DNA of 64,000 nucleotides. Origin: an uncultured Lachnospiraceae bacterium. GTDB taxonomy: Bacteria; Bacillota; Clostridia; Lachnospirales; Lachnospiraceae. Numbering within the stretch: position 1 is the stretch's first letter; every line of letters begins with the position of its first letter. A program made the position numbers and the translations under genes. The stretch covers positions 1 through 64,000 of the forward strand of contig CAMUYQ010000009.1 in the NCBI GenBank assembly GCA_947165025.1, in the 5' to 3' direction. A model generated the notes under the pieces. It was not told where the DNA came from. It did not search any database and saw only the letters and a program-made list of their open reading frames with translations. This document shows positions 44,710-64,000 of the stretch, piece after piece.

Positions 44710-44750
44710 AATAAGAGCGTGATACATGCAGGCATGATCACGCTCTTATT
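44710..44750 (+). terminator. Terminator after the alarmone synthetase gene
   Basis: AATAAGAGCGTGAT (44710-44723) and ATCACGCTCTTATT (44737-44750) form a perfect 14-base stem; the 3' side is T-rich but interrupted. Confidence 0.8.
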
Positions 44751-44774
44751 CTTAAACTTTTTATCATTAAAAAT

Positions 44775-44868: not shown

Positions 44869-44882
44869 ATATACCACCGATG

Positions 44883-44915
44883 TATGAACAAATTATGAAC
44901 AAACTATGAATATAT
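44883..44915 (+). repeat. TATGAACA direct repeat block, copy B
   Basis: Three TATGAA-starting units with an exact 11-base period (44883, 44894, 44905). The first 19 bases are identical to 31491-31509. It lies about 15 bases after the mini reading frame and about 90 bases before the candidate promoter of the next gene. The intergenic stretch 44684-45071 otherwise holds the terminator, copy B and that promoter. Confidence 0.6.
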
Positions 44916-45003
44916 AGTAAATGTTTCCAAAGGAAGTAAAAATCAGGAGCGTTTTATTGTATATTATGCACAATGCTCTTTTTGCTATATTGAAGCATAT
45001 ATA

Positions 45004-45032
45004 TTGTGTTTTAACATAATAAATGATAGAAT
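45004..45032 (+). promoter_or_regulatory. Candidate promoter of the tail-anchored protein gene
   Basis: TTGTGT (45004-45009) and TAGAAT (45027-45032) are 17 bases apart in an AT-rich region, 40 bases before the start codon. GGGAGG precedes the ATG at 45072. Confidence 0.5.
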
Positions 45033-45071
45033 ATTGACGATATATGGTATTTTACTGATCGGGAGGTAAAT

Positions 45072-46076: not shown

Positions 46077-46087
46077 TCTGAATTGAC

Positions 46088-47665: not shown

Positions 47666-47708
47666 TAATTGGTTAATTTGTTACATTCACCAAAAAAATG
47701 CTTTGATA

Positions 47709-47737
47709 TTGCAAGCCATTTTTTCGGGTATTATAAT
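47709..47737 (+). promoter_or_regulatory. Promoter of murA
   Basis: TTGCAA (47709-47714), 17 bases, TATAAT (47732-47737). The GTG start is at 47769. Confidence 0.75.
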
Positions 47738-47768
47738 TATTCTGTTTGATAATTCAGAGGTGTGACAA

Positions 47769-49061: not shown

Positions 49062-49077
49062 TCCGATCTTTTCTTAT

Positions 49078-49107
49078 TTGACATATCATATGCTCATTCT
49101 TTATAAT
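49078..49107 (+). promoter_or_regulatory. Promoter of the HD-GYP gene
   Basis: Perfect TTGACA (49078-49083) and perfect TATAAT (49102-49107) with an 18-base spacer. Confidence 0.85.
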
Positions 49108-49143
49108 TATTCTGGATTTGTATGTTAATTAAGGAGATTCTCT

Positions 49144-50247
49144 GTGAAAAGAGTACGGATCACGGAACTTCGGCCGGGCATGAAAACGGCGGAGGATGTA
49201 TTTTCATATAACAATCAGATGATAGTGCCCAAGGGCTCTGTCCTTGATGATAAGATGATAACCCGTCTTGAATTCTATTCGGTTCTTGCCGTCCGTATCG
49301 TGGATGAGGAGGACGGATCCGAATCCGAACAGGCTCCCGAGCCTCTCAGTGATGGTGAGATAAGCGATAATTCATCATATTCCCAGAAGATCAAGAACAG
49401 TAAACAGTTCAAGAAGTTTGAGGAATCGTTCCTTGAGAATACCGAGTCCTTCAAGGAAAATCTTAAAAACATAGCTGAAGGCGGCGCCGAGATAGACAGC
49501 CGTGCGATGATCGACAGTATCACGAGTCTCATCGAAGGAGATATGACGGGCATCAGCGTGTTTGATATGCTGCATAACATGCGTCAGTATGATGATTTTA
49601 CATATATGCATTCGATGAACGTGTCGCTCATATGTAACGTTTTCGGTAAATGGCTTGGTATGAGTACCGCGGATATCGATATCATAACGCTCGGAGGACT
49701 GTTGCATGATATCGGAAAGCTGAAGATACCGGACAATATAATCAGGAAGCCGGATAAGCTCTCGCCGGCCGAATACAACATAATCAAGACACATTCGCTT
49801 CAGGGATACAATATCCTCAAGGATAAGAACATAGATGATAATGTTAAGCAGTGCGCCCTGATGCATCATGAGCGTTGCGACGGATCGGGATATCCGCTCG
49901 GACTGATGGGCGATAAGATCAATATGTATGCCAAGATAGTTGCGATCGCCGATGTTTACGATGCGATGACGGCAGCGAGGATATACCGCGGACCGCTGTG
50001 TCCGTTCAAGGTGATCAGCATATTCGAATCAGAGGGACTGCAGAAATATGACGGACACTATATTCTCACGTTCCTTGAGCATGTAGCGACAACATACATG
50101 AATAACAGAGTCAGGCTTAACAACGGTATGGAAGGTGATGTCATTTTCATGAACAGAAACCAGTATTCCAGACCGATGATCCAATGCTCCGACAAGTTTG
50201 TCGATCTTTCAAGGGAGCCGGATCTCTATATTGAGACGTTTGTTTGA
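49144..50247 (+). CDS. HD-GYP cyclic-di-GMP phosphodiesterase
   Basis: A 367-residue cytosolic protein. The N-terminal part (about 1-120) is a DUF3391-like/linker region. The HD-GYP domain has LLHDIGKLKIP (His188-Asp189) and MHHERCDGSGYPLG with Gly249-Tyr250-Pro251. It should hydrolyse cyclic-di-GMP. A short beta-rich C-terminal extension follows (NRVRLNNGMEGDV). GTG start after AAGGAG. The LicD fusion gene starts at the stop codon (TGATG), linking cyclic-di-GMP turnover to a surface-polymer gene. Confidence 0.88.
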   Translation: MKRVRITELRPGMKTAEDVFSYNNQMIVPKGSVLDDKMITRLEFYSVLAVRIVDEEDGSESEQAPEPLSDGEISDNSSYSQKIKNSKQFKKFEESFLENTESFKENLKNIAEGGAEIDSRAMIDSITSLIEGDMTGISVFDMLHNMRQYDDFTYMHSMNVSLICNVFGKWLGMSTADIDIITLGGLLHDIGKLKIPDNIIRKPDKLSPAEYNIIKTHSLQGYNILKDKNIDDNVKQCALMHHERCDGSGYPLGLMGDKINMYAKIVAIADVYDAMTAARIYRGPLCPFKVISIFESEGLQKYDGHYILTFLEHVATTYMNNRVRLNNGMEGDVIFMNRNQYSRPMIQCSDKFVDLSREPDLYIETFV

Positions 50248-52439
50248 TGAACAATGAGTTTTATGAAGACGAAGTATCAGAGGGATTTTATGTTCCGTCC
50301 ATGATCAAAAAGGCATGGGGAGCGCAGCTGGATGTCCTTAATGAAACGGACAGGATCTGCAGGAGGCATAATATCCCTTATTTTGCGGACTGGGGCTCAC
50401 TTTTGGCTGCCATCCGCCATAACGGTTACATCCCGTGGGATGATGACCTGGATATTTCAATGCGCCGAAGGGATTATGAGCGATTTTTGCGCCATGCGGA
50501 AGATGAACTTCCCGAAGGCTTCAAGGTAATGCATTTCAAAAATCATCCGCAGCATCATTTCTTTGTTGCCAGGATAGTCGGCAAACCCAGGATATGTTTT
50601 GAGGAAGAACACCTTACACGTTTTCACGGCTTTCCGTACATAGCCGGGATCGATCTTTTTGTGCTCGATAACGTGTATCGTGACCGCAAAAAAGAGAAGC
50701 TCAGATCAAAGAGAGCGGAGTATGTGCTCGCGGTTGCAGACAATATCGCGGACGGTAAAACGAATGCGAAAGAGACAGAAGAGTTGTTGAAACAGTGTGA
50801 ACAGTATACGGGAAAGAAGATAAACAGAAAGCTTTCGGGCGAGGAGCTTCGTATATTCATGTACGGTCTTGTTGAGGAAATCTTTGCTTCCGTTCCCGAT
50901 GAGGAATCTGATGAACTTGTACAGATGATGCCTTTCGGGATGTATGAAAGAAAACTGTACATTCCGAAAGAGTATTACAGTGATACCGTCAGGCTGCCGT
51001 ATATGAACACAACGATCCAGGTCCCCATATGTTATGATGCCGTGATGCGTCGCAAGTTCGGAAATTACATGAAGATCCAGAGAAAATGGGACGGTCATGA
51101 ATATCCTTTCTTCTACGGCCAGCATGAACAGCTGATAAAGACTCTTGATTTTGAGTATCCCGCATATAAAGCTTCGGCAGGTGATATTACCGCAAAACCG
51201 GTAAGATCTGACGGAGTCAGGGATGTGGCAGAAGAATATGCAAAGCGGATAAGATCATATGCGGAGGATGCACAGCTTCTGCAGCAGACGTCAATAGAGT
51301 TCGGGACGCTGATAGAGTCGGCATACGGAGAAGGATACAGGACAGTAACGATACTTGAGCAGCTGTGTGAGGCAGCCTATCAGTACAGTATCAAAGAGGG
51401 CACGAAAGAAGAGATCGAAGCGGTCATAGATGCTCTTGAAGAGAGCATATCAGAGGATATTCTGTCAAGACATGATATCGTGTTCATGCCTTTTGCCGCA
51501 AAACACTGGCAATATATGGAAAAACTGTACAGATACTATGAATCTGACGACAGGTATAATGTTTCCGTAATGCCCGTTCCGTATTATTACAAAGGCTGGG
51601 ACGGAGCGTTTACGGAAGAAGTATTTGATAGGGATGCGTACCCTTCGGATCTTCCGTTCATCGACTGTACCAAAGTAAATCTTGAGGCGATGCATCCGGA
51701 AAAGATCATAATACAGAATCCGTTTGATGAGTGGAATCCGGTTATGAGTGTTCCGCCCGAAATGTTTTCACCGGCCCTGAGAAAGTATACCGACGAGCTT
51801 GTTTACATCCCGTTTTTTGTGACGGATGATCTTACGAAAGAGAACGGACCGGAGTATGTCAACATGGATCATTACGTCTGTGTTCCCGGAGTGATCAATT
51901 CCGACAGGATAATACTTCCGACTGAAACATTAAAGAACACATATATGGATAAGATTACCGGATTTGTTAATACGACGGACCGGGAAGTGCTGAAGGCTCT
52001 TGATGAGAAGATCGAAGTGGCACCGCAGTTTGTATTTAACCCCAAAAAAGAGGACTGTGAGTATGTCTGTGATAAAGGCGGCAGAAAGACTCTTGTGTAT
52101 TTTACCACTGTAAGTTTTCTGGCAGAGAGGGGCAGCAAGGGGATCGAAAAGATCAACTCCGTCATTGATATTCTCATGCAGAACAAAGATAAGATGGATG
52201 TTATCTGGGTATTTCAGTGTATAAAGGACAATATAGAAAAGATCGATAATGGCGTGGCGGATGATTTTCGAAAGGCTGTTAAGCGTTTTGAAAATGCAAA
52301 GATCGGCCGACGCATGGACGATATCCCCAAGGCGGAACACAAACGCATCGCAAAGATGTGCGATGCGTATTACGGAGATCCGTCGGCTCTTGCCCTGGAG
52401 TTTTATTATGAGCACAAACCGGTGATGATAATCGGTTAG
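50247..52439 (+). CDS. LicD-family protein fused to a glycerophosphotransferase-like domain
   Basis: A 730-residue protein. Residues about 25-280 are a LicD nucleotidyltransferase-fold domain (ADWGSLLAAIRHNGYIPWDDDLDI), the type that attaches phosphocholine or other phospho-substituents to teichoic acids and glycans. From about residue 410 the sequence (DIVFMPFAAKHWQYMEKLYRY and VMPVPYYYKGWDG) resembles the N-terminal half of CDP-glycerol glycerophosphotransferase-like proteins of Lachnospiraceae. ATG 50247 is preferred over the TTG at 50244. Probable role: substituting a cell-surface polymer with a phosphodiester-linked group. Confidence 0.75.
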   Translation: MNNEFYEDEVSEGFYVPSMIKKAWGAQLDVLNETDRICRRHNIPYFADWGSLLAAIRHNGYIPWDDDLDISMRRRDYERFLRHAEDELPEGFKVMHFKNHPQHHFFVARIVGKPRICFEEEHLTRFHGFPYIAGIDLFVLDNVYRDRKKEKLRSKRAEYVLAVADNIADGKTNAKETEELLKQCEQYTGKKINRKLSGEELRIFMYGLVEEIFASVPDEESDELVQMMPFGMYERKLYIPKEYYSDTVRLPYMNTTIQVPICYDAVMRRKFGNYMKIQRKWDGHEYPFFYGQHEQLIKTLDFEYPAYKASAGDITAKPVRSDGVRDVAEEYAKRIRSYAEDAQLLQQTSIEFGTLIESAYGEGYRTVTILEQLCEAAYQYSIKEGTKEEIEAVIDALEESISEDILSRHDIVFMPFAAKHWQYMEKLYRYYESDDRYNVSVMPVPYYYKGWDGAFTEEVFDRDAYPSDLPFIDCTKVNLEAMHPEKIIIQNPFDEWNPVMSVPPEMFSPALRKYTDELVYIPFFVTDDLTKENGPEYVNMDHYVCVPGVINSDRIILPTETLKNTYMDKITGFVNTTDREVLKALDEKIEVAPQFVFNPKKEDCEYVCDKGGRKTLVYFTTVSFLAERGSKGIEKINSVIDILMQNKDKMDVIWVFQCIKDNIEKIDNGVADDFRKAVKRFENAKIGRRMDDIPKAEHKRIAKMCDAYYGDPSALALEFYYEHKPVMIIG

Positions 52440-52454
52440 TCTTCGAAAGATTCT

Positions 52455-53255
52455 TTAAAGAGAAGGACAGACACAGTCCTGTTCTTTTTCCTCTGAGCTT
52501 ATTTTCTTCCGATCATACAAATAGAAGATCACAGATGCCGTGACCATTAACACGGCTATCCATTGCGAAGTCGAGAGGCCGAAGTAAAGGCCTCTGTCCG
52601 TATCTCCCCTGAACCTTTCCAGAAAGAATCTGCATATGCCATACAGGAACACATACAGTTCAAGAGAATATCTGAATGAAACCGTAAGCTGTAATATCAG
52701 TATTATCGCCGATATGATAAAAAGGCATACGGATTCGGCCGGTTGACTCGGAAACAGGCTGATACCGGACGGTGCAAACGAATCTTCGGGAAAGGTTACC
52801 GCAAAGCGCCCGTCATAAGGCACTCCGTAACAGCATCCTGCCATAAAACAGCCTATCCTTCCGAAAGCGTGTGCAAACGGGAGAAGAAACGTATACTCCC
52901 TGAAATATCTCATGGCGTCGATCTTATGAAAATGTGCGGCTGCAAATACGGCAATGATCGCAAGTATCAGGCCGCCATAGAATACGAAACCGCCACGCAT
53001 CACGCCGGAGAAGTATTCTTTTTCGAATATCCTTGACCAGTCGATCTTTTGTATATTCACAAGAAGAAACAAAAGTTTTGCGCCGAGAAAAGCGCCGCCA
53101 AGACCGTATGCTTCAAGAAGGATCAGATCAAGCCAGTCTTCACCTCGTTTCCTGATCATCAGGGCAGCTATCACATTAGCCAGTACAGCGCCAAAAGTGA
53201 TCGACAGTCCGTATCCGGGAAGAGAAAGACTTCCAAAATGAATGAAAGGATGCAT
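52455..53255 (-). CDS. lgt: Prolipoprotein diacylglyceryl transferase
   Basis: A 266-residue membrane enzyme with seven helices that moves diacylglycerol from phosphatidylglycerol to the lipobox Cys of prolipoproteins. The core HAFGRIGCFMAGCCYG (His129, Arg133) corresponds to the Lgt signature with the essential Arg. The several lipoproteins in this window are its likely substrates. It lies past the terminator of the small membrane-protein gene and has no obvious separate promoter. Confidence 0.88.
   Translation of the reverse strand: MHPFIHFGSLSLPGYGLSITFGAVLANVIAALMIRKRGEDWLDLILLEAYGLGGAFLGAKLLFLLVNIQKIDWSRIFEKEYFSGVMRGGFVFYGGLILAIIAVFAAAHFHKIDAMRYFREYTFLLPFAHAFGRIGCFMAGCCYGVPYDGRFAVTFPEDSFAPSGISLFPSQPAESVCLFIISAIILILQLTVSFRYSLELYVFLYGICRFFLERFRGDTDRGLYFGLSTSQWIAVLMVTASVIFYLYDRKKISSEEKEQDCVCPSL
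52464..52489 (+). terminator. Candidate terminator of the LicD gene
   Basis: AGGAC (52464-52468) and GTCCT (52476-52480) form a short stem, followed by GTTCTTTTT. It lies inside the 3' end of convergent lgt. The stem is only five bases, so the call is weak. Confidence 0.35.
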
Positions 53256-53281
53256 AATGAGTTGACACCTGTAAAAGAAAA

Positions 53282-53305
53282 AAACCCCTGCAAATGCAGG
53301 GGTTT
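53282..53305 (-). terminator. Terminator of the small membrane-protein genes
   Basis: AAACCCCTGC (53282-53291), loop AAAT, GCAGGGGTTT (53296-53305). On the minus strand it is followed by a T-rich run (53284 down to 53271). It lies between the two-helix protein gene and lgt. Confidence 0.85.
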
Positions 53306-53314
53306 AAATTGTTG

Positions 53315-53554
53315 TTAATTAAATGCACCGGCTGCGCTGGCGCAAGCTATACATGCAATATAAAGGATAGAACTGAGAACAAGTGCGATGATCGAGATCA
53401 CAAGACCGGCAGTTGCACAAGACATACCCTTTTTCTTACCAATAGCGCCAAGAATGATACCTGGGATTGAAAGGATGATGCCGATCCAGTCAACTACAGG
53501 AATTAAACCGAAAACCAACGCAATAATACCAAGAACTAATGAAGCTACACCCAT
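53315..53554 (-). CDS. Small two-helix membrane protein (DUF4190-like)
   Basis: A 79-residue hydrophobic protein: MGVASLVLGIIALVFG, a Gly/Lys turn (GAIGKKKGMS), and ATAGLVISIIALVLSSI, the pattern of DUF4190-type proteins. It ends with a CxxC motif (ACIACAS). It has its own promoter candidate and terminator, unlike its paralogue at 53662, with which it shares layout and C-terminal CxxC. Function unknown. Confidence 0.7.
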   Translation of the reverse strand: MGVASLVLGIIALVFGLIPVVDWIGIILSIPGIILGAIGKKKGMSCATAGLVISIIALVLSSILYIACIACASAAGAFN

Positions 53555-53601
53555 TTTTAATCCTCCTCATAATGGTAGTTAGTTGTGACACATCATAAAA
53601 T

Positions 53602-53630
53602 ATTTTCGCATCTAGGGTATTCTTTGTCAA
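53602..53630 (-). promoter_or_regulatory. Promoter of the 53315 small membrane-protein gene
   Basis: On the minus strand TTGACA (53625-53630) is 17 bases from GAAAAT (53602-53607), which is preceded by TGC, an extended -10. GGAGG precedes the start codon. Confidence 0.55.
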
Positions 53631-53661
53631 GAAAACACCGAAACAGAATGGGTCTTGATCA

Positions 53662-53928
53662 TTAATGTGCCGCAATACCGACACATGCCACACATGCAAC
53701 GGTAATGACGATCCCCCAGTAAACCGTAAAGACAATACCAACAATGAGACCTACCATTGAAAGGATGCTTCCGGTCTTAACCTGGCCTGTCGTAAATCCG
53801 TTGTAATCAACATATGCTGCAGCTCTCTTTCTTCCGAGGACACCGAGAACGATCCCGGGGATACCGAGCCATGAAAGTGCTGCCGATAAGATACCGAATG
53901 TCAGACAGCTTGATGGTGTGATGTTCAT
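53662..53928 (-). CDS. Small two-helix membrane protein (DUF4190-like), paralogue
   Basis: An 88-residue protein with two membrane segments (ILSAALSWLGIPGIVLGVLG and ILSMVGLIVGIVFTVYWGI), a GRKRAAAYVDYNG loop between them, and a C-terminal CxxC (ACVACVG). AAAGGAG precedes its start. It lies 21 bases after the hydrolase gene, so it may be the last gene of the lipid operon. Function unknown. Confidence 0.65.
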   Translation of the reverse strand: MNITPSSCLTFGILSAALSWLGIPGIVLGVLGRKRAAAYVDYNGFTTGQVKTGSILSMVGLIVGIVFTVYWGIVITVACVACVGIAAH

Positions 53929-53949
53929 TGAACACTCCTTTCTGCGTTT

Positions 53950-54903
53950 TCACGCATACAATTGTTTTATAAAATCAACTACCGTGCAGTCATATTCTTC
54001 ACGGCTGTTATAGCGGATCCGTGAATGCGCTCCCCTGTCAAAGAAGTGCATTTTTTTAACGGGGCTTATACATTTATTATATAATGATTCTGCCTTTTCG
54101 GGCAAAGAAAATGTATCTTCGCGGCTGTGAAGGAAAAGAATGGGACGCGTCATCAGGCCGATGCGCTTTACGGGGCCGTCCGATATCGGGCGGGCACCTG
54201 TTTTCATCCAAATTCTCATCATGATCTCGTATGCGACCGGGAATACAGGGTGATGATCTTCGTGCATGTGACATACGAAGGAATCAAAAAAAGTCGTATA
54301 CATTCCGTCCGCAACCATCGCCGACATATAGTCGGGGCATGTACTGTCGGTAAGCGCAAACAGTGCCGCTGACGCTCCTATGCATATCCCGTGAAGCATA
54401 ACGGTCTCTATACCGAAGTCATCGTGAAGCATCCTGCCCCATGCGAGTAAGTCCCTGTATTCGGAAAAACCGAGAGTGGGGTAAGTCCCTTCGGAATGCC
54501 CGTGTGCACGGTTGTCTATCGTAAGGATATTGAAGCCGGCTTCTTTGTAGGGCGGGGCAAAAAAGCATGAATAATAACAGGATTCCGTTCTGCCGGGGAT
54601 GATGATAACGGCTCTTTTGTAACCCAGATCGTAATATTCTCCGCACAGCTTCAGAGCGTCGCTCGTAACGGAAACATCTTTACGATATGATGCGTGCTCA
54701 TCTCTCCACGAAAGTGCCTGTCTGTACATACCGCTGTATTCCACATCATCGGGGAAGCTGCACGTTCTGTCCCATTTATCGCGTGTTTCGCGCATCAGAA
54801 GAAACCGGAATATCTTACCCGACAGATTCCAGGTGTATATGACCCCGCCTGCGGTTGCCGCTATGAGAATAAATACTGTCAGCCATATTGCTGTGTGCAT
54901 CAT
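53950..54903 (-). CDS. Membrane-anchored alpha/beta hydrolase with a Cys nucleophile
   Basis: A 317-residue protein with an N-terminal membrane helix (about 5-25) and an alpha/beta-hydrolase fold: IIIPGRTESCYYS oxyanion region, TIDNRAHGHSEG, nucleophile elbow HGICIGAS, Asp263 in SREDTFSLP, and His293 in RGAHSR. The elbow normally reads GxSxG; here the nucleophile position is Cys174. Cys nucleophiles occur in dienelactone hydrolases. It sits at the downstream end of the lipid operon, 10 bases after the FakA gene, so an acyl-ester or acyl-thioester substrate is plausible. Confidence 0.7.
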   Translation of the reverse strand: MMHTAIWLTVFILIAATAGGVIYTWNLSGKIFRFLLMRETRDKWDRTCSFPDDVEYSGMYRQALSWRDEHASYRKDVSVTSDALKLCGEYYDLGYKRAVIIIPGRTESCYYSCFFAPPYKEAGFNILTIDNRAHGHSEGTYPTLGFSEYRDLLAWGRMLHDDFGIETVMLHGICIGASAALFALTDSTCPDYMSAMVADGMYTTFFDSFVCHMHEDHHPVFPVAYEIMMRIWMKTGARPISDGPVKRIGLMTRPILFLHSREDTFSLPEKAESLYNKCISPVKKMHFFDRGAHSRIRYNSREEYDCTVVDFIKQLYA

Positions 54904-54913
54904 TATCTCCGAT

Positions 54914-56560
54914 CTATGTAAGGCCTATCAGCCAGCCGTAAAGCTGCTGTCCGCCATTCTCACACGTTACTTCAAGAAGAGGCCATTTTTCATTTATGGC
55001 TTCGATCAGTTCCTCTTCGGAAAGATCAGTTTCGTTTCCTTTAAACAGGATACAGCTTTCCTTTTCGTTCATGTCGGGCAGGCAGTCAAAAGCAGCAATG
55101 ATGGCAGATACGGCATTATCCCCTTTTGCAATGACCTCATCCCTGATAACAACTATGTTGTCACCACAGCTGCACATAATACCCTGTCCCGAACAGTCTC
55201 TTGTCGCCACGGTCTGTCCCATTGTAAGGACGTCTTTGATACCCGATTTCATTTGCCTGAGACGGTACTCGGTATCGGTACTGTCGGCAACATCCATGGC
55301 AAGGGCGAAGTATCCCTCGACCATGCTCCGGCTGTACAGGATCTCTATACGTGCACTCCCGTTAAAGAGCTTTGCAGCCTGCTCTGCTGCAAGGATCGCA
55401 TTGGCATTATCCGGAAGAACGGCTATTGTCTGCGAACCGCATTTTTTAAACGCTTCGAGAAAATCCTCCGCGGAGGGATTCATAGTCGTTCCGCCTTCTA
55501 TCAGGACGGCACATCCGAGATTTTCGAAGCACTGTCTCATTCCCGCACCGTTCACGACAGCTACGGTTGACAGCAGCTGCTGGGATTTTGTGAGCGACAC
55601 AGCCTGAGCATGTTCGTTATGCTGAAGCTGCATGTTCTCAAGTTTGAAATTGATGAACTCTCCGAACTCCTGCGAGAGTGAAATGACCTTGGCCGGTTTT
55701 TTTGTATGGATATGGACTTTGATCTTCATCCCTTCCTGAATGACTACAAGAGAATTACCGTAGATCCTGAGGTCATCAATATAAGAGGGAAGGTGGAAAC
55801 GCTGATTGTACGATCCCGTTGCCATAAGCTGCAGGACATATTCCATACAGTAACCGTCTTCGAAAACGCTGTTCTCATCAAAGACTGCGGTCATAGGATT
55901 GACCGTCGCCAAGGATCGTTCATAACGGGCAGTATCCTGTGAGATAACATCTCCGTACAGATATTTGAGCATTCCTTCGCATATCAGTATATAGCCGAGA
56001 GCACCGCTGTCGATGACACCGGATTCCTTGAGAACATCGAGCATCTCGGGAGTATAAGCAAGAGTTTTTCTCATTTCGGCAATGTACATCGAAAGAAGCG
56101 TGTCGATACCCGTGTTATGTCTTATCTGTGAGCGGATATGTTCTATACCTTCTCTTGCAACGGTCAGTATAGTTCCCTCAACAGGTGTGACGACGGCTTC
56201 GTAGGCGACACGGTATGCCCTTATCAGACAGTTTCTCATTTCGCCGGGACCGATGATGGGATGCCTTGAAAGCTCCAGCCACATGCCGCGGAAGAGCTGT
56301 GAAAGTATGACTCCGGAATTACCTCTTGCACCGAGGAGCATTCCTTCACTCAGTTCTTTGAGGAAGTGACATGCTTCCTTGTGGCTTTTCGAGGAATTCA
56401 GTCCGTTGGCAAGGGTTAAGCACATGTTAGTCCCTGTATCCCCGTCGGCGACAGGGAACACGTTCAGACGGTTGACTTCCGTTTCGGATGCCTCAAGATT
56501 GGCAAGTCCGTTACGGATCATTTTTTCAAGTTGTATACCGTTAATCCTTCTGGTACTCAT
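54914..56560 (-). CDS. fakA: Fatty acid kinase subunit A (DhaL/DAK2 domain, YloV family)
   Basis: A 548-residue cytosolic kinase of the YloV/FakA family. The N-terminal DhaL domain has NVFPVADGDTGTNM (Mg-ATP Asp39 and Asp41) and GARGNSGVILSQLF. A middle and a C-terminal domain (from about 200) complete the usual length. FakA phosphorylates a fatty acid held by a DegV-type FakB, giving acyl-phosphate. The DegV gene is two genes upstream in the same operon. Overlaps the transporter gene by four bases. Confidence 0.85.
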   Translation of the reverse strand: MSTRRINGIQLEKMIRNGLANLEASETEVNRLNVFPVADGDTGTNMCLTLANGLNSSKSHKEACHFLKELSEGMLLGARGNSGVILSQLFRGMWLELSRHPIIGPGEMRNCLIRAYRVAYEAVVTPVEGTILTVAREGIEHIRSQIRHNTGIDTLLSMYIAEMRKTLAYTPEMLDVLKESGVIDSGALGYILICEGMLKYLYGDVISQDTARYERSLATVNPMTAVFDENSVFEDGYCMEYVLQLMATGSYNQRFHLPSYIDDLRIYGNSLVVIQEGMKIKVHIHTKKPAKVISLSQEFGEFINFKLENMQLQHNEHAQAVSLTKSQQLLSTVAVVNGAGMRQCFENLGCAVLIEGGTTMNPSAEDFLEAFKKCGSQTIAVLPDNANAILAAEQAAKLFNGSARIEILYSRSMVEGYFALAMDVADSTDTEYRLRQMKSGIKDVLTMGQTVATRDCSGQGIMCSCGDNIVVIRDEVIAKGDNAVSAIIAAFDCLPDMNEKESCILFKGNETDLSEEELIEAINEKWPLLEVTCENGGQQLYGWLIGLT

Positions 56561-57921
56561 TGTGCCTGTTTTGAAACCTCATGTTCTTTCTTTCCGATAC
56601 TTGTAACGGTTTCGGGAAGTATGTGACTGAGCATATATGATACAAATGTTCCGGCCGCGCATATCAGAGTGAGATAGCGGATAGCTCCGGATCCGGAACT
56701 CTGTGAGCCTTTAAGCGCGGTAAGGACAACACCGCTTCCGATTCCCGTCGCAACACCTGCGAACAGTCCCTGTACGGCGAAATACATTGCTGAGTTGGAA
56801 ACGCCGGTTTTTTCCTCTTCATCGGATGCCAGCTGGGAGGGTATCGAGTAGGCGACCGCAAAGAGTGATCCGATCGCAAACGAACTGATGATACCTGCAA
56901 CCGCAGACAGAACCGTCTTTAACGTTCCCTGGTCGAGAAGCGCTACAAGGAAAAGACTGAGCATGCCGGCGGTATATGTCAGCACCGAATAACGGAATGC
57001 AAATCCGAACCCGCGTTTTCTCAGAAAATGATTATACAGCATCAGCGTGAACGGAACGGGTGCGAACGAACACATCATGACGATTATCATGCTCATACCT
57101 ACAAACGAGAAATATTCGTTGATACCGCTCAGGAACAGCTGCACGCTGAATGTCATGATCGAATAAACAAACATCCAGACAATGAAAGACCTGTTACGGA
57201 ATGTATATTTCAGGGAAGATGCCAGATTGACTATATGCGAATCGGAAGTGTTCCCTGCGTGACCGTCAACGGATGAAGGCTCTTTGATCATGAAGATCGG
57301 TATCAGCATCGTGAGCGATAACGGAAGTATCATAAGTGAAACGGGCCTTATGTTCGTTCCGTTGAGCATCATCCTGACACCTACATAACCGAGTATAAAA
57401 TATGCGATATCATAGATCGATTTGGCATTAGACATAAGAGTCCGGTCTTCCTGTGTGTCAACGATCTCGGTAAACGTCGCATAGTATGTTACCATCGTGA
57501 GCGTATATGAACAGTAGAAAACGCATAGTATCACGCCGTAGTAAACGGTATTCAGAACACCTGCACCAAGAGGATCCGGAATAACGAGGAACAGAAGAAA
57601 TGCGATGATCATAGGGATCATTCCGAACAGTATGGAAGGCCGGCGTCTTCCGAACCGTGATCTTAACGAATCGGTAAAAGCAGCCATCGGAACGTCGATC
57701 ACCCCGTCAAGGATCTTCGCGACAAGCGCAAAGACAGCCCATACTCCGGGTATGATCAGATCGCGACCGACATATGTCTGAAAAGGTATTGCCTCTTCTC
57801 CGAATCCGCCCACGAGAAGGGCGCTGCACAGATATGAATTCATCATCAGGTTAAGCATGTTAACACCAAGACCCGATGCCGCGTAGATTATTATCTGCGA
57901 TCTTTTTGTAAGCTTTTTCAT
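56557..57921 (-). CDS. GPH-type MFS transporter (MelB-like)
   Basis: A 454-residue carrier with about 12 membrane helices. It matches the glycoside-pentoside-hexuronide:cation family: AKILDGVIDVPMAAFTDSLRSRFGRRRP is the hallmark region near helices 2-3. Family members move sugars, but a relative in animals, MFSD2A, moves lysophospholipids. Its position between fakA and fakB, overlapping both by four bases, points to a lipid or fatty-acid substrate rather than sugar. That is inference. Confidence 0.75.
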   Translation of the reverse strand: MKKLTKRSQIIIYAASGLGVNMLNLMMNSYLCSALLVGGFGEEAIPFQTYVGRDLIIPGVWAVFALVAKILDGVIDVPMAAFTDSLRSRFGRRRPSILFGMIPMIIAFLLFLVIPDPLGAGVLNTVYYGVILCVFYCSYTLTMVTYYATFTEIVDTQEDRTLMSNAKSIYDIAYFILGYVGVRMMLNGTNIRPVSLMILPLSLTMLIPIFMIKEPSSVDGHAGNTSDSHIVNLASSLKYTFRNRSFIVWMFVYSIMTFSVQLFLSGINEYFSFVGMSMIIVMMCSFAPVPFTLMLYNHFLRKRGFGFAFRYSVLTYTAGMLSLFLVALLDQGTLKTVLSAVAGIISSFAIGSLFAVAYSIPSQLASDEEEKTGVSNSAMYFAVQGLFAGVATGIGSGVVLTALKGSQSSGSGAIRYLTLICAAGTFVSYMLSHILPETVTSIGKKEHEVSKQAQ

Positions 57922-58856
57922 GAATTGACCTCCGCGACAGCCTTTTCAAATATACCGCGCTCGACCGACAGATCGGATGAAATCGGCTTTCCGACATAGT
58001 AGGCCGCCATGAGCCCGGGCCCGACATTAACTCCGCAAAGAGGATGAACGTCGTGTATCACAACCTCCTTCGGAGAAAATCGCTGCTCTATCATTTTTTT
58101 ATATTCCTCTGCCTGCGGCAGTCTGTTTGTCTGGGCTATGTATATGGTCTGCTCTTCGGGATTTTCTATCGTTTCCTCGATATAGCGCATCAGAACGGAA
58201 TAGGTTGTTTTGGTCCCTTTGACTTTTCCGAGAACGGTCGTAAGACCGTTGTAATCAAATTCCCCTATCGGCTTGACACCGGCCAGCATACCGAGAAAAG
58301 CTTTCGGGTGCGTGATACGTCCTTTCTTTGCTACAAATGACAGATCATCAAGCCATCCCGCCTGATGATAACGGTTTTTATTCTCGTTAAGATATGTCTC
58401 GACAGAGAGCAGATCCTTTCCGTCGTTTCGAAGCTGTGCTGCATGTATCGTCATGAGACCGTGTCCCGGACCGAAACGGAGCGAATCAACAACACAGATC
58501 TTCCTGCCGGGGTATTTTTCCATCACCTGTTTTGCCGCAGTGGTCGCGAATCCGAATGCTCCGCTTATACCACTTGAAATGGTCAGAAGAAGAAGATCCT
58601 TACCGTTCTTTAATACTTCCTCAAATGCGCGCGAGAATTCCTCGACGTTTGCCGGGCTGGTACTGAATTCGTTGGGATGCTTTTTCAGATCCGTATAAAA
58701 CTGTTCACGTGTAAAGAGATCCCACGTGGGATAGGACAGGTGCTCTGTCTTGTCAGGCAGTCTGATGTGACCGGGAATAAGTTGTATGTCGTATTTCTTA
58801 AGCAGTTCCTCGGTCAGATCGCATGATGCATCTGCCATGATCACAAATGATTTCAT
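57918..58856 (-). CDS. fakB: DegV-family fatty-acid-binding protein (FakB)
   Basis: A 312-residue DegV-fold protein that binds a fatty acid and presents it to FakA. The start is MKSFVIMADASCDLTEELL; STSPAN and LTISSGISGAFGF are the fatty-acid-carboxylate-binding blocks. The C-terminal loop NVGPGLMAAYYVGK lacks the usual His of HxGPG. AAGGAG precedes the start. The FakA partner is in the same operon, which supports FakB function over an orphan DegV protein. Overlaps the transporter gene by four bases. Confidence 0.85.
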   Translation of the reverse strand: MKSFVIMADASCDLTEELLKKYDIQLIPGHIRLPDKTEHLSYPTWDLFTREQFYTDLKKHPNEFSTSPANVEEFSRAFEEVLKNGKDLLLLTISSGISGAFGFATTAAKQVMEKYPGRKICVVDSLRFGPGHGLMTIHAAQLRNDGKDLLSVETYLNENKNRYHQAGWLDDLSFVAKKGRITHPKAFLGMLAGVKPIGEFDYNGLTTVLGKVKGTKTTYSVLMRYIEETIENPEEQTIYIAQTNRLPQAEEYKKMIEQRFSPKEVVIHDVHPLCGVNVGPGLMAAYYVGKPISSDLSVERGIFEKAVAEVNS

Positions 58857-58875
58857 AATAATCTCCTTCTATGAT

Positions 58876-59124
58876 TTATAAATGATCTTCAAGATAATCG
58901 ATAACATCTTTCATAGTCGAAAAATCACTCATTCCGACGTCCTCGAATTCCATGCCGAAAGTCTCTTCTATAACTATCATCAGATAGAGCATTCCGACGG
59001 AATTGAGAGAAAGATCCGTTCGAAGGTCTGAAGATTCACTGCACTTTTTTATCAGTTCAGCGTTGCCGTTATCAGCCCCCATAAGGATCTTTTTCAGTTT
59101 TTCCAGTATTTCTTCTCTGCTCAT
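58876..59124 (-). CDS. Acyl carrier protein
   Basis: An 82-residue acidic four-helix carrier. The phosphopantetheine Ser42 lies in LNSVGML, where most fatty-acid-synthesis ACPs have DSL, so this is a specialised carrier. It overlaps the upstream ligase gene by four bases and is probably loaded by that ligase. A 4'-phosphopantetheinyl transferase must act from elsewhere. Confidence 0.82.
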   Translation of the reverse strand: MSREEILEKLKKILMGADNGNAELIKKCSESSDLRTDLSLNSVGMLYLMIVIEETFGMEFEDVGMSDFSTMKDVIDYLEDHL

Positions 59125-60611
59125 TTTTTGTATCTCACTATCTTCATGCTCGGTGATCTTTCAAAGTCCTGATCGCGGATCACGATCTTATTGACCTGAC
59201 AGAATCCGGGGAGTGAACGATTGACCTTCTCGAGCTCGTCCATCATATATGCTTTTGTATCGGAAAGCTCTTTTTTTGCAAGAACTGTTGCACGCGGAAC
59301 TATCTCTAAGCTGAGTATCGCATTTTGGCTTTCGTTCTTATCTTCAAACACCTGTGAGTCCTGTACAAAATCAAGCGCGTTGAAATGTGCTTCCACCTCG
59401 GCGGGAGATATATTCTCACCGCTCGGAAGAACGATGATCTCCTTGATCCTGCCGGTGATATACAGATATCCGTTTTCATCAACGCGGGCAAGATCCCCGG
59501 TTCTGAACCATCCGTCAGAAAAGCTTTCCTCATCCGGCGCTCCGATGTATCCGTCAAGCATGTTTCTTCCTTTAAGCCAGAGTTCGCCGTTTTCAATACG
59601 GTATTCCTGGTTGGGGAACATCAGGCCGACAGAATCGCTGTGATCTATGCTGTCGGGATTTCCGGACACAAGGTTTGCGGATTCAGTAAGGCCGTATCCG
59701 GGATGAAGGGTGATACCTTTTTTGTGGTATTCCTCGACAAGATAAGGAGCTACGGGAGCGGCACCGCATATTATGGAACGAAGATCGTCGCCGAGCATGT
59801 TGCGCTTAAACTTTGCGGAAAGATTGAGAGCGATCTCGGCAAGAGCCGGGACCATAACAAGTATGGTCGGACGAAACGCAGCACAGTCTTTGAACATATC
59901 TTTATTGTCCCGGCATATACACATATTGCTGCCGGTGTACAGCGAAGTCATGAGATTCCGGATCAGGCCGAACACGTGACTGAGAGGAAGGATCAGAAGA
60001 TATCTCTGTTCAAAGACATTTTCATATCCGTAACAGCCGTTGACCGTTCCCTGCATGACAGCGGCATTTGACAGAAGTACACCTTTGCTCTTTCCGGTCG
60101 TTCCTCCGGTGAACATGATCACACACGGATCGGATCCCGAGACCGTTGCCGGCGGGATATGATTTTCCGGAAGGTCATCTGAAGATACAATCGGGACAGA
60201 GACCCTGGAAGCTTTCTCCTTAAGAGCAGGTGAACATACGAGTGATTTTACACCGAACTGCATGCAGCATCCGAACACGGCTTCCTCCGGAAGCATCGCG
60301 GGAAGTATTACCGCGGTAAGGCCGAGCGTTGTAACGGCAAGATATGCATGCACGAATGAAACACTGTTTTCGATCAGCAGGGCAACCCTGTCGCCTTTAT
60401 CAAGTCCGGAGAAATGTGATCGGAACCTTGCGACCTCTTCTTCAAGTTGTTTGTATGAATATTCGCATCCGTTATCCGTGATCGCGATATTATCCGAGTA
60501 TTCATCCTGACATCTTTTCCACATTTCGGAAACACTGTTCATATCGATTATACGGCGGAATGTTTCTTCGCTTGTGTATTTACGCCATATTTCAGATGAT
60601 CCGGTTTTCAT
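59121..60611 (-). CDS. Acyl-AMP ligase (acyl-ACP or acyl-CoA synthetase type)
   Basis: A 496-residue adenylate-forming enzyme. P-loop FTGGTTGKSKG (168-178 from this start), YGLTESAN, GWFRTGDLARVDENGYLYITGR and GENISPAEVE are the ANL-superfamily cores, and the C-terminal catalytic Lys region is near RSPSMKI. The start at 60611 follows GGAGGAG and overlaps the upstream acyltransferase stop (ATGA); a longer frame to 60671 is rejected. It most likely loads a fatty acid onto the adjacent ACP. Confidence 0.88.
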   Translation of the reverse strand: MKTGSSEIWRKYTSEETFRRIIDMNSVSEMWKRCQDEYSDNIAITDNGCEYSYKQLEEEVARFRSHFSGLDKGDRVALLIENSVSFVHAYLAVTTLGLTAVILPAMLPEEAVFGCCMQFGVKSLVCSPALKEKASRVSVPIVSSDDLPENHIPPATVSGSDPCVIMFTGGTTGKSKGVLLSNAAVMQGTVNGCYGYENVFEQRYLLILPLSHVFGLIRNLMTSLYTGSNMCICRDNKDMFKDCAAFRPTILVMVPALAEIALNLSAKFKRNMLGDDLRSIICGAAPVAPYLVEEYHKKGITLHPGYGLTESANLVSGNPDSIDHSDSVGLMFPNQEYRIENGELWLKGRNMLDGYIGAPDEESFSDGWFRTGDLARVDENGYLYITGRIKEIIVLPSGENISPAEVEAHFNALDFVQDSQVFEDKNESQNAILSLEIVPRATVLAKKELSDTKAYMMDELEKVNRSLPGFCQVNKIVIRDQDFERSPSMKIVRYKK

Positions 60612-61219
60612 TTTATCTCCTCCGCAATTTTCTGAAGTTCTTCTTCTTTTGTCCGAAGCAGGCGTGAGCATTCCTCGATCGCCGGGATCCCTCCGCTGCA
60701 GTTTTCTTTGACGTCGAATTTCTCACCGATAACAAGGACAAGACGTTCCAGTTTGTTACGGCGAGGTCTGATATAGACGGGAACGATCGGACTGTTTCCC
60801 TTAAGTGCCATGAGGACAGCTCCCGATTTAAATGTATCGAGTGTTTCGGGGGATACATTTATGTGTCCTTCAGGGAACATCGCAACAACCTTACCGTTTT
60901 TCAGGCATCCTGTCACTTCCCGTATCGTTTCCATTTCGATCCTGTCGCGGTCGACGGGTATACAGTGGACAGCCTTAAACACCCATCTGAACCTGCCATC
61001 AAAAAAGTGCTTCAGGCATACGAAGTGCATCCGTCTGTACCAGAGTGAATACTGAAGATACACCGGGTCAAAAAAACCGAAATGGTTTGCGACAACAAGC
61101 GCGCCGCCGCGAACCCGTTTTTTTGCTTTATCGTTTTCATATACGAGCTTTGGGCGAAACGCGATCAGTCCGGGAATGGCGGCTGTCGCTTTTGCAATAT
61201 CAAAAAACAGATAACTCAT
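60608..61219 (-). CDS. PlsC-type acyltransferase 2
   Basis: A 203-residue membrane-associated acyltransferase of the glycerolipid family: NHFGFFD (His46, Asp51) as the HX4D motif and FPEGH at 115-119. It acylates a lysophospholipid or glycerol phosphate from acyl-ACP or acyl-CoA. The start at 61219 is chosen because AAAAGGA precedes it; a longer frame is rejected. It overlaps the previous gene by 20 bases. Confidence 0.85.
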   Translation of the reverse strand: MSYLFFDIAKATAAIPGLIAFRPKLVYENDKAKKRVRGGALVVANHFGFFDPVYLQYSLWYRRMHFVCLKHFFDGRFRWVFKAVHCIPVDRDRIEMETIREVTGCLKNGKVVAMFPEGHINVSPETLDTFKSGAVLMALKGNSPIVPVYIRPRRNKLERLVLVIGEKFDVKENCSGGIPAIEECSRLLRTKEEELQKIAEEIK

Positions 61220-61844
61220 TATATTCCTTTTCAAGTTCAATGATGCGCTGGCGCATCGCATCATTTACAAGAGATATATTTTCTTTTTCGGAAAGAGCTG
61301 GATCGGTCAGATCTTTTGCATAGAATTTCTTTCCGATCAGAACGACTGCACGCTTTTTGCAAAAGTAGCTCCCGTTTGTATAGACCGGAATCACCGGAGC
61401 TTTTGAGAGCATTGCAAGATAAGCTCCGCTCGGTCTGAAAGGAAGGGGGCGCTCTTCACCCGCTCTTGGCAGCCTTCCTTCAGGAAAGATCCCGACAACA
61501 CCGCCCTCATCAAGTATGGACTGTGACTGTGCCATGAAAGAAAAATCATATATATTCCGGTCCACCCTGATCCCACCGAGAGTTCTGAGAAAAGGTCCGA
61601 GAAACTTTTTGTTAAAGAGTACTTCAGCCATCTGATAGCGGAGAGTCCTTCCGAAGAAAACGAACATCATCACGGCATAATCAAATACGGAAGTATGATT
61701 GGAGATCACGATGGCTTTGCCTTTTATGCGCCGGCTCTGCGCTTCTTTGTCTTCGTACAGGATCTTAGTCCTGAAGCAGACAAACTGCACGGGCCAACCC
61801 GTGATCTTAACAAACAGATTTACAAAATGTATCAGCATTTTCAT
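61200..61844 (-). CDS. PlsC-type acyltransferase 1
   Basis: A 214-residue acyltransferase with NHTSVFD (His50, Asp55) and FPEGR (120-124), the HX4D and FPEG motifs, and a hydrophobic N-terminus. It is related to but clearly different from the one that follows, so the two may act at different positions or on different acceptors. Its start lies 38 bases inside the preceding ligase gene and has no clear Shine-Dalgarno; the ATG at 61838 is an alternative. Confidence 0.85.
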   Translation of the reverse strand: MKMLIHFVNLFVKITGWPVQFVCFRTKILYEDKEAQSRRIKGKAIVISNHTSVFDYAVMMFVFFGRTLRYQMAEVLFNKKFLGPFLRTLGGIRVDRNIYDFSFMAQSQSILDEGGVVGIFPEGRLPRAGEERPLPFRPSGAYLAMLSKAPVIPVYTNGSYFCKKRAVVLIGKKFYAKDLTDPALSEKENISLVNDAMRQRIIELEKEYNELSVF

Positions 61845-63765
61845 CGTACGTGCTTATATGTGTGTAAAGCGCTTTTACCGTATTAAGAGTGGATCCTTCG
61901 GTCACGGGGAACGATGTTTTGAACTGCTCATGCAGATCCGTGATCAGCGCAAAGTAGTCAAGGCTTGTACCGCCAAGATCGAGAAAGAAATCAGCGTTAA
62001 GAGATATCTCTTTGATGTCTTTGTTAAGAGCCTTTGCAAACGCTGATGCAATCTTAACGTACAGATCGTCATCGGGAATGTCGGATCTTTCAAAAGATTT
62101 TTCCGAGAATTCGGTAAAGTTGCCTGATAAGTATCTCTCTCTTATCTTTCTGCGGTTCAGTTTAAAATCATCCGGGCCGATAAGTTCGTCTTTTGTAAAG
62201 AAAAGACGGGAGATCTTTCCTGCAAGAAAACCGGAAGAGATCGTGTCCCTGACAGATCCGCGGGCCTCTGACAGATCCTCAAGAGAACAGTCTTTTGATA
62301 CCGAACATATGAGGAGCGGTCCCGAATCATCGATGAGCGCTACACCGTTAAGAACAGGAAGATCAAACAGCCCTTCTATAAGGTTCGGGTTAAGGTTCTC
62401 ACCGTTTGATCCGATCACAAGATCGTCTTTTCTGCCGAGTATGGTAAAATGCCCGTTTTGAAGCTGTGCAAGATCGTGTGTGTTGAACCTGTCGGGACGC
62501 TCGGTCCGTCTGCCGCCTTCGAGTATATAAGAGGCCATTGTTCTTCCCGATACAATTAGCTCCCCATCGGGGCTGATCTCATATTTGAGTGAAGACATTG
62601 GCTTTCCGACAAAGCCTCGGTTAATATATTTTCCGCGTCCGGACAGCTCCACGGAGCTGATGCCGATCTCACTCATTCCATAGCCGTTTGCAAGACGGTA
62701 CCCGATCCCGTTAAAAAATGACAGGACTTCGGGGCGGATATTACTGCCGCCTGTTATCATGAACTGTATGCTCTCGCCGAACAGATTGTCCCGTACTTCC
62801 CTGAACGCAAAATGTGAAAAAGCTTCCGACAGAGGAGGTATGGCGGACAGCTTATTGCTGAGCCGGAGTGCGCGTGTGAACTTTTTGCAGGTATCATCCC
62901 CACGTTCTTTGATCTTTGCCGTTGCCCGGTCATAGATCTTTTCCCAGAACATCGGTACGGCAAATATATGGGTCACCTCATGGTTTCGTATCGTTCTCAG
63001 TATCGTATCGGGAGACAGGTCATCAAGATGTACGAACGTTCTTGAAAAGAAAGAAAACCAGATATACAGAGCTGTCAGACCGAATACGTGATAAAAAGGA
63101 AGAAGGTCAAGCTGTTTTAACTGACCGTGATAAAAGCCTTTAAGCTTTGAGCATTTTTTGATGATCTTATAGCTGTCCCGGATCTGATGATAGATCTCTT
63201 CGGCGGTATAAGCGCATATCTTGACCGAAGAAGAAGTTCCCGAAGACATGACGAGAATGTTCGTCCCGTATTTTTCGGGGGTATATTCCTCTTGTTTGGA
63301 CATAAGGGAATCGGAACCGATAGTCCTTACCGTAAACTGCCTGCCGTCAGATATTACGGCAACTGCGTTAAGGTCCGAAAGTGCTTCGCTTAAGACGTCC
63401 TCTCCGAGATTTTCATTCAGAAGAAGCGGACTGTACCCCGCACAAAGAATTGCCCAGAATGATTCTATCCATTCCGGACCGTTTTTCATACACAGGCCTA
63501 CAACGGAACCTTTACCGGTGTCCGACAGCGCATCTGAAAGGGCTTTCGCGCGGATCAGAGAGTTCTTTTTGGCCGTTCCGTATGTGATCTTTTCAGTTTC
63601 TCCGTTTATATCACGTTCATACAGTATGAGGTCTTTCTCGGAAAACATCAGTAAAAACAAAGATGCGAAGGTATGATCCATACTGTCAAACTGTTTGAGT
63701 TTGTTCCTTACGAACGCGTTGATACTGTATGTTCCGCGTTCGGTTTTGATCTTCACCCGATTCAT
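61807..63765 (-). CDS. Acyl-AMP ligase fused to a C-terminal acyl carrier domain
   Basis: A 652-residue protein. The adenylation domain has a degenerate P-loop (MSSGTSSSVKI), NGYGMSEIG, and a C-terminal Lys region (DDFKLNRRKIRERYLSG). The last 85 residues are an ACP/peptidyl carrier domain with DLGGTSLD (phosphopantetheine Ser601). It thus activates an acyl group and loads its own carrier. The start at 63765 (MNRVKIK) is chosen; an extra 40 hydrophobic residues encoded further upstream overlap the divergent promoter and are rejected. It heads the lipid operon. Confidence 0.82.
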   Translation of the reverse strand: MNRVKIKTERGTYSINAFVRNKLKQFDSMDHTFASLFLLMFSEKDLILYERDINGETEKITYGTAKKNSLIRAKALSDALSDTGKGSVVGLCMKNGPEWIESFWAILCAGYSPLLLNENLGEDVLSEALSDLNAVAVISDGRQFTVRTIGSDSLMSKQEEYTPEKYGTNILVMSSGTSSSVKICAYTAEEIYHQIRDSYKIIKKCSKLKGFYHGQLKQLDLLPFYHVFGLTALYIWFSFFSRTFVHLDDLSPDTILRTIRNHEVTHIFAVPMFWEKIYDRATAKIKERGDDTCKKFTRALRLSNKLSAIPPLSEAFSHFAFREVRDNLFGESIQFMITGGSNIRPEVLSFFNGIGYRLANGYGMSEIGISSVELSGRGKYINRGFVGKPMSSLKYEISPDGELIVSGRTMASYILEGGRRTERPDRFNTHDLAQLQNGHFTILGRKDDLVIGSNGENLNPNLIEGLFDLPVLNGVALIDDSGPLLICSVSKDCSLEDLSEARGSVRDTISSGFLAGKISRLFFTKDELIGPDDFKLNRRKIRERYLSGNFTEFSEKSFERSDIPDDDLYVKIASAFAKALNKDIKEISLNADFFLDLGGTSLDYFALITDLHEQFKTSFPVTEGSTLNTVKALYTHISTYDENADTFCKSVC

Positions 63766-63866
63766 GATTATCCATATTACCACATCACACCAAAAAATAC
63801 ATCTTTTAACCCACCCCGGCGGTATCGGTGGTATAATAGAAAACAGCAGTAAAAAAAGGAGGCCAT
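63766..63866. promoter_or_regulatory. Divergent promoter region: lipid operon / beta-glucosidase
   Basis: This 101-base gap separates the start of the minus-strand lipid operon from the plus-strand GH3 gene. The plus promoter is annotated separately. For the minus strand a TGGTAATAT extended -10-like sequence lies near 63771-63779; no -35 is clear. Confidence 0.4.
63829..63837 (+). promoter_or_regulatory. Extended -10 of the GH3 gene
   Basis: TGGTATAAT is the same perfect extended -10 seen at 43988. AGGAGG at 63857-63862 and ATG at 63867 follow. Confidence 0.6.
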
Positions 63867-64000
63867 ATGGATTCAAAGATAAGATCATTACTTAAGGAAC
63901 TCACACTTGAGGAGAAAGTCAGTCTCTGTTCGGGGTACGATTTCTGGCATACGAAAGAGATAAAAAGACTTAACATACCGTCGGTCATGGTCAGCGACGG
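63867..64000 (+). CDS. GH3 family beta-glucosidase, N-terminal part (runs off the window)
   Basis: The frame opens at ATG 63867 after AGGAGG and stays open to the end, giving about 44 residues. LTLEEKVSLCSGYDFWHTK and LNIPSVMVSDG match the N-terminus of glycoside hydrolase family 3 beta-glucosidases/xylosidases of Lachnospiraceae. No signal peptide, so it is probably cytosolic, cutting imported cello- or xylo-oligosaccharides. Confidence 0.85.
   Translation, partial: MDSKIRSLLKELTLEEKVSLCSGYDFWHTKEIKRLNIPSVMVSD

Follow-up and report, generated by a model that had tools for sequence, protein, structure and literature searches.

A conserved clostridial gene cluster that may re-activate free fatty acids and re-acylate membrane lipid

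Introduction

Which lipid pathway is encoded by nine minus-strand genes that follow one another at 63765-53950 of the window, the 64,000-nucleotide stretch of contig CAMUYQ010000009.1 (assembly GCA_947165025.1, an uncultured Lachnospiraceae bacterium) analysed here? The genes encode an acyl-AMP ligase with a carrier domain (LigACP), two PlsC-type acyltransferases (PlsCa and PlsCb), a second ligase (Lig2), a free acyl carrier protein (ACP), FakB, a GPH/MFS_2 carrier, FakA and an alpha/beta-hydrolase (ABH1). Their families are backed by Pfam and NCBIfam searches of the listed open reading frames (ORFs), and the same nine genes had been claimed at 53950..63765 in an earlier note, which saw in them a mixture of the Aas-LplT and FakAB lipid salvage systems. 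Judged from gene families and conserved residues, the chances are about even that the cluster is a dedicated module in which free fatty acids are activated again and used to re-acylate membrane lipid. The parts are of known kinds; for the whole combination no description was found among the matches listed in searches of open-access full text (subscription papers and preprints outside), judged by their titles and the openings of their abstracts. Such a conserved Clostridial cluster, if it has the chemistry for lysophospholipid import and re-acylation or turns recycled fatty acids into an acylated lipid not known so far, would provide a named gene set to test.

Conservation of the cluster

We gathered 29 loci that carry LigACP, no two of them more than 88% identical in that protein, and retained three with weak matches (L100, L101 and L102) among them. 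At least six loci (L048, L050, L055, L098, L101 and L194) end at contig ends, and absences there carry little meaning. In nine loci from metagenome-assembled genomes (MAGs), labelled Lachnospiraceae, Oscillospiraceae or Clostridia, the order LigACP-PlsCa-PlsCb-Lig2-ACP-FakB-GPH-FakA-ABH1 is kept as far as the contigs or fetched flanks reach; L051-L054 hold extra genes between ACP and FakB, and L055 and L056 are layout variants. The flanking genes vary between loci with conserved order, and the pairwise identities of seven gene families correlate (r = 0.75-0.94 over 8 or 9 loci, values that relatedness inflates), as expected for a jointly inherited unit. Conserved order in different contexts, together with the correlated identities, argues that the operon is more than chance. 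The earlier note had set out beforehand that a gene order not conserved in relatives would speak against its reading; the order was found conserved across loci with varied flanks, and the reading passed this test of its own.

A PlsC-type gene is found in 25/29 loci, FakB in 21 and FakA in 19, and ABH1 occurs in the identical 19 loci as FakA, a pairing with a cysteine hydrolase that appears new and is easily testable. Free ACP is found in 16/29 loci, the GPH carrier in 12, a glycosyltransferase of the GT2 family close to the core in 8, and a Lig2-like gene in 12, three of which (L191-L193) have as "Lig2" a protein of 841 amino acids (aa) and different build. In L192 (16161-18686) this protein combines an AMP-binding ligase with a TIM barrel that resembles xylose isomerase; the genes in L191 and L193 are similar. 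Less frequent are an LRAT protein (7/29), a second hydrolase, ABH2 (7/29), a 4'-phosphopantetheinyl transferase (PPTase) domain or gene (5/29, as expected for dedicated carriers), PlsX (4/29) and Lgt (3/29: the window, L052 and L098). No locus has both GPH and GT2, and all four PlsX loci also carry GT2, patterns that may be a lineage effect. The count misses PlsCb in L051 and LRAT in L053, the latter spotted by eye. Two PlsC domains are present in at least 19/29 loci: as separate genes in 16, in L051, and fused in L056 (PlsCa with PlsCb) and in a two-domain protein of L192.

Three broad layouts can be distinguished. Besides the window type there is a GT2/PlsX type with two FakBs (L070, L182, L184 and L186; L185 is similar, with neither FakAB nor PlsX in its fetched 19 kb) and a type with one PlsC, FakB-FakA-GPH-LigACP-PlsCa-ABH1 (L187, L188 and L189). 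L099 consists of LigACP-PlsCa-PlsCb-ACP only, and these four genes are taken as the core.

Host genome and distribution of LigACP

The host is a bacterium of gut or rumen type; its genome comprises 2.70 Mb in 20 contigs and is 99% complete. LigACP is rare. Orthologues of 54-60% identity were found in 2/36 same-genus relatives searched. With the wider of two profiles (A2), LigACP was detected in 5/397 family genomes (E<=1e-190), 13/391 class genomes (E<=1e-60) and 2/398 phylum genomes (E<=1e-100), and with the narrower profile (A1) in 2/392 order genomes (E<=1e-30), the own genome being included each time; the other phylum genome is without the surrounding cluster genes. Weak same-genus and order matches were dropped, and the four inspected (L044-L047) are ligase-like genes without the cluster. 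Family and phylum matches weaker than about 1e-46 were likewise dropped, three of which (L103-L105) were inspected and have no cluster, as were 8/17 loci of a peptide-pattern scan that used only two patterns (L057-L064, 22-26% identity, generic ligases). Isolated second LigACP-like proteins of 581-611 aa, with no cluster around them, occur in three genomes (L181:10738-12507, L183:9078-10823 and L190:9315-11150) and were left out of the locus counts.

Ligases, carriers and acyltransferases

The catalytic residues of LigACP are conserved over the 29 loci. In the motif numbering A3 to A10, the A5 Glu, A7 Asp and A8 Arg are present in 29/29, the A10-like Lys in 25/29 (three have Gly and one is truncated), the A3 Lys in 22/29, and the carrier Ser in 28/29, the remaining one being truncated. 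A reading from three rows, that LigACP is without the A10 lysine, was dropped after an 11-row alignment. Free ACP has no Pfam match at E<=0.001; in an alignment with ten further cluster ACPs it shares a serine that does not vary. This attachment serine sits in NSV; the usual motif at this position of ACPs is DSL.

In a two-sequence search against E. coli Aas, Lig2 matches the synthetase half (28% identity, E=1e-22), PlsCb matches at E=9e-9 and PlsCa at E=3e-4, and LigACP reaches only E=0.30, which is not a useful match. FPEGR is read in both PlsCa and Aas, and PlsCb has FPEGH. Among the NCBIfam models that PlsCa and PlsCb hit, each time below cut-off, are Aas-type acyl-ACP:phospholipid acyltransferases and the TIGR00530 1-acylglycerol-3-phosphate (AGP) acyltransferase family. 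At E<=0.01 the two PlsC profiles lead to one solved structure only, the 1-acylglycerol-3-phosphate acyltransferase 5kym.

FakA, FakB and the hydrolases

The operon FakA is the second full-length FakA of the genome, the housekeeping copy lying on contig C1. It has all three FakA domains (N-terminal, middle and C-terminal), together with the Asp pair that binds metal and the Cys-His-His triad, and its score against the FakA_VfrB equivalog NF038248 is below cut-off (336 vs 975 bits). The triad of S. aureus FakA and the role of FakB R173 are described in one paper (PMC9136124), and a later one treats the triad residues as a metal site (PMC11617999). The triad is kept in 18/19 cluster FakAs. In FakB the arginine of the GR motif, equated with R173 by hand mapping on the 6mh9 alignment, is invariant in 12/12 aligned rows, one of which is a non-cluster DegV protein.

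A tree splits nine cluster FakAs from two housekeeping FakAs with 100/100 support, with a warning of long branches from the tool. The housekeeping FakA/YloV (G000:C1:203983-205662, L106), which adjoins a RecG-like gene by eye, is without the triad; of the full-length FakAs found in this genome, the operon copy alone bears it. We considered the operon gene as a replacement for a broken housekeeping FakA and rejected the idea: the genome's own copy lacks the triad, but so do 17/19 further FakA genes, taken from 20 loci of which one gave no FakA frame (18/19 come from same-genus genomes other than G010), and triad loss is thus not tied to the cluster. Among the non-cluster FakAs from the 30 best-scoring loci, two of which gave no FakA frame, the triad is kept in 24/26.

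ABH1 has a Cys at the place of the nucleophile, with Asp and His, in 19/19 sequences; its best solved relative, the esterase entry 5g59, has serine there. ABH2 has a Ser nucleophile in the 6/6 sequences read (of 7 loci). In several relatives ABH2 lies between ACP and FakB, which is also the place of the LRAT protein, fused to a PPTase domain in three loci (L051, L054, L097) and standing by itself in L056. His23 and an NCEHF motif are common to the four LRAT rows that were aligned. PlsX adjoins FakA in 4/29 loci (PF02504 for the gene of L070, E=2e-69). In Enterococcus PlsX is described as linking acyl-phosphate to acyl-ACP (PMC11586512), and by analogy the PlsX of the GT2/PlsX type would link the acyl-phosphate made by FakA to an ACP. 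One PlsX was found in the host genome; it lies on contig C1, and the operon on C9.

The GPH carrier

The cluster carriers keep the cation-site residues Asp55, Asp59 and Thr121 of MelB in 12/12, but all five galactoside ligands (Lys18, Asp19, Asp124, Trp128 and Arg149) are replaced in 12/12 (residue roles as given in PMC8329300). This loss was considered as evidence against sugar transport and rejected, since two sugar carriers of E. coli, UidB and YicJ, are also without all five, and the cluster carrier may thus still be a sugar carrier. MelB, UidB and YicJ have Lys377 in common; the 11 cluster carriers whose sequence extends to this column all have Gly, Ala or Ser in its place, so that the pocket differs from those of the three sugar carriers.

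At E<=0.01 the carrier profile has a single PDB match, MFSD2A (26.9 bits), which carries lysophosphatidylcholine. With filters off, the profile scored 32.6 bits for UidB, 32.0 for YicJ and 15.0 for MelB, the MFSD2A value coming from a separate run. MelB is in the same PDB copy yet was missed by the filtered search, and UidB as query finds MelB first and MFSD2A next. Kinship with MFSD2A was therefore rejected as evidence for lysolipid transport, as UidB and YicJ outscore it; by bits the carrier is closer to these sugar carriers than to MFSD2A. No significant match to E. coli LplT was obtained (best E 0.53), and LplT-like import of lysolipid by the GPH carrier is possible. One GPH carrier, at L055:5635-7590, has a C-terminal extension of about 150 aa with no Pfam match beyond MFS.

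Proposed pathway and alternatives

From gene families, residues and neighbourhood we infer the reactions below, the pairing of carriers with acyltransferases, the acceptor and the substrate of the GPH carrier. ABH1, in relatives also ABH2 and LRAT, would free or move acyl chains at the membrane. FakB would extract the free fatty acid and FakA convert it to acyl-phosphate, while in parallel LigACP and Lig2 would adenylate free acids and load them onto the ACP domain of LigACP and onto the free ACP. Each enzyme of the PlsC-type pair probably draws its donor from one carrier, and together they would add two chains to hydroxyls of a polar glycerolipid-like acceptor; this could be a lysolipid that the GPH carrier moves across the membrane, or the head group of a (glyco)lipid. 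Overall the scheme would follow the logic of Aas, in which an acid is activated and a lysolipid acylated, but spread over several genes and joined to the FakAB route of Gram-positives. That it amounts to an undescribed Gram-positive re-acylation pathway, with both acyl-phosphate and acyl-adenylate chemistries, two private carriers, paired PlsC enzymes, a Cys-hydrolase membrane transacylase next to FakA and a lysolipid flippase in the GPH lineage, is in our estimate rather unlikely; if true, it would be a functional counterpart of LplT-Aas outside Gram-negatives.

Several observations weigh against re-acylation by such a module. The role of every member is judged by sequence. Three LigACPs have Gly for the A10-like lysine and 7/29 are without the A3 Lys, the cluster FakA of G371 is without the catalytic middle domain, and a Cys nucleophile is unusual for a lipase. 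LRAT, PPTase and PlsX have no match in the window. The four-gene core of L099, which is without FakAB, marks FakAB as an add-on, and L100-L102 have the ligase without any PlsC. The GPH carrier is absent from 17/29 loci, so that a lysolipid importer would not be part of the core, with the qualification that at least six of all 29 loci are cut by contig ends, and none of the eight GT2 loci has it. Since the nearest solved PlsC relative is a lysophosphatidic acid acyltransferase, the acceptor may also be ordinary lysophosphatidic acid.

The main alternative, which we hold to be unlikely though well short of negligible, is that a special di-acylated glycolipid or surface lipid is built from recycled fatty acids, its sugar part being imported by the GPH carrier or made by the GT2 enzyme according to lineage. 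Such a division of labour would fit the presence of GT2 near the core in 8/29 loci and never with GPH (12 loci), although this exclusion may merely reflect two lineages. The higher profile scores of UidB and YicJ, compared with MFSD2A, also suit a sugar substrate, a polysaccharide deacetylase is found in L182, and dedicated carriers with their own PPTase are usual in specialised biosynthesis. The earlier note had allowed for an unusual acylated lipid or glycolipid, an option that gains weight from the GT2 genes of relatives and loses some from the window itself, where positions 44001-64000 gave no GT2 match; ABH1, LRAT and FakAB, moreover, suit recycling better than building.

It is less probable still that the cluster serves plain uptake or detoxification of environmental fatty acids, which would enter ordinary phospholipid through the housekeeping PlsX, PlsY and PlsC, the extra ligases and carriers merely adding capacity. 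FakAB, PlsX and AcpB do so in Enterococcus (PMC6509188, PMC11586512), and several of the related MAGs were recovered from rumen, omasum, colon or faeces. This explanation leaves aside the dedicated PlsC domains, the LRAT protein, the GPH carrier and the Cys hydrolase, and within the window genome the operon FakA, with its triad, is not a mere spare for a housekeeping FakA without one. We regard as very improbable a pathway that acylates lipoproteins or an envelope polymer with the help of the Lgt paralogue near the operon. The genome does have two Lgt genes, the one at 52455-53255 being divergent, and the three loci with Lgt near the cluster include the window; but the other 26 loci, some cut by contig ends or by the flank fetched, gave no Lgt match, and in the window a terminator-like hairpin stands between this gene and the operon.

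Relation to known systems

Like LplT-Aas of E. coli, the cluster unites in one operon an acyl-ACP ligase, a PlsC-type acyltransferase and an MFS carrier. It differs in that these are separate genes, whereas Aas is fused, in having two of each enzyme and carriers of its own, and in that its transporter belongs to another MFS family (PF13347). The gene set would thus work like an Aas split into parts, and is not a member of the LplT-Aas family. Of the combination proposed in the earlier note, the FakAB part was borne out by its catalytic residues and the Aas part by the matches of Lig2, PlsCa and PlsCb to the two halves, while the LplT part was not supported. LplT-Aas is described as identified only in Gram-negatives, and the use of lysophosphatidylcholine by streptococci is reported (PMC11416262).

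The likeness to FakAB (with PlsX) lies in the Asp pair and Cys-His-His residues of FakA and the GR arginine of FakB. What sets the cluster apart is that ligases, carriers, a Cys hydrolase and two PlsC enzymes share one operon with FakAB, and that this FakA is an additional full-length copy beside the housekeeping gene. In Enterococcus, fatty acids enter phospholipid through FakAB, PlsX and the auxiliary AcpB (PMC6509188, PMC11586512). There, in AcpB-PlsX and TesE-Fak, an extra ACP or a hydrolase is described as feeding the Fak route (PMC6509188, PMC12288450), which resembles the present arrangement; but acpB of Enterococcus goes with plsX, whereas here the parts are clustered with ligases and acyltransferases, and an ACP adjacent to PlsX was not found in the window. 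Nor was an LRAT domain or NCEHF motif, the marks of the PLAAT/LRAT family, found there. With MelB and MFSD2A (GPH, MFS_2) the carriers share the cation-site Asp pair and Thr, and they differ from MelB in the sugar ligands and Lys377.

Gene layout and neighbouring genes

The features of the operon and its downstream side are collected in Table 1.

Table 1. Features of the cluster and its downstream flank, in window positions
Feature	Position	Strand	Assignment and remarks
LigACP	61807..63765	-	acyl-AMP ligase with C-terminal carrier domain; PF00501 and PF00550; frame open up to 63888
PlsCa	61200..61844	-	acyltransferase, PF01553; NHx4D and FPEGR (12-row alignment)
PlsCb	60608..61264	-	acyltransferase, PF01553; NHx4D and FPEGH (11-row alignment)
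Lig2	59121..60671	-	second acyl-AMP ligase, without carrier domain; PF00501; orthologue starts about 19 codons later
Free ACP	58876..59124	-	NCBIfam ACP models below cut-off; 11-row alignment
FakB	57918..58856	-	DegV-family fatty-acid-binding protein; PF02645 above cut-off, NF038249 (FakB1) below cut-off
GPH/MFS_2 carrier	56557..57921	-	PF13347
FakA	54914..56560	-	three-domain fatty acid kinase; three FakA/DAK2 Pfam domains; TIGR03599 above cut-off
ABH1	53950..54903	-	alpha/beta-hydrolase, PF12146/PF00561 (Hydrolase_4/Abhydrolase_1); Cys nucleophile in HGICIG; hydrophobic N-terminus (by eye)
Small membrane-type protein	53662..53928	-	weak DUF4190 / CCC-motif match; likely same transcript; 21-base gap
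Second small DUF4190-like protein	53315..53554	-	PF13828 below cut-off
Terminator-like hairpin	53282..53305	-	10 pairs and T-run; probable transcript end

The earlier note had described most junctions between the nine genes as 4-base overlaps, which overstates the case: counted from the listed ORF starts, with 63765 for LigACP, exact 4-base overlaps are present at 3/8 junctions (Lig2/ACP, FakB/GPH and GPH/FakA), and the others are three overlaps of 38-65 bases, which depend on the ORF start that is taken, and two gaps (10 and 19 bases). The hairpin follows the two small DUF4190-like genes, so that the transcript may hold ten or eleven genes; terminator-like sites number 29 on both strands of the whole stretch against 9.9 in shuffles. 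A relative of the small membrane-type protein at 53662..53928 was found in 5/29 loci.

Beyond the hairpin lies the divergent second Lgt (minus strand), which scores 119.6 bits against 184.5 for the other copy. Its membership in the operon was considered and rejected, since the hairpin sets it apart and the other 26/29 loci showed no Lgt as far as their contigs or fetched flanks reach, and it is probably a separate unit. No tRNAs were found in the window. Convergent with the Lgt paralogue, at 50244-52439 on the plus strand, is a gene for a 731-aa protein with an N-terminal LicD domain.

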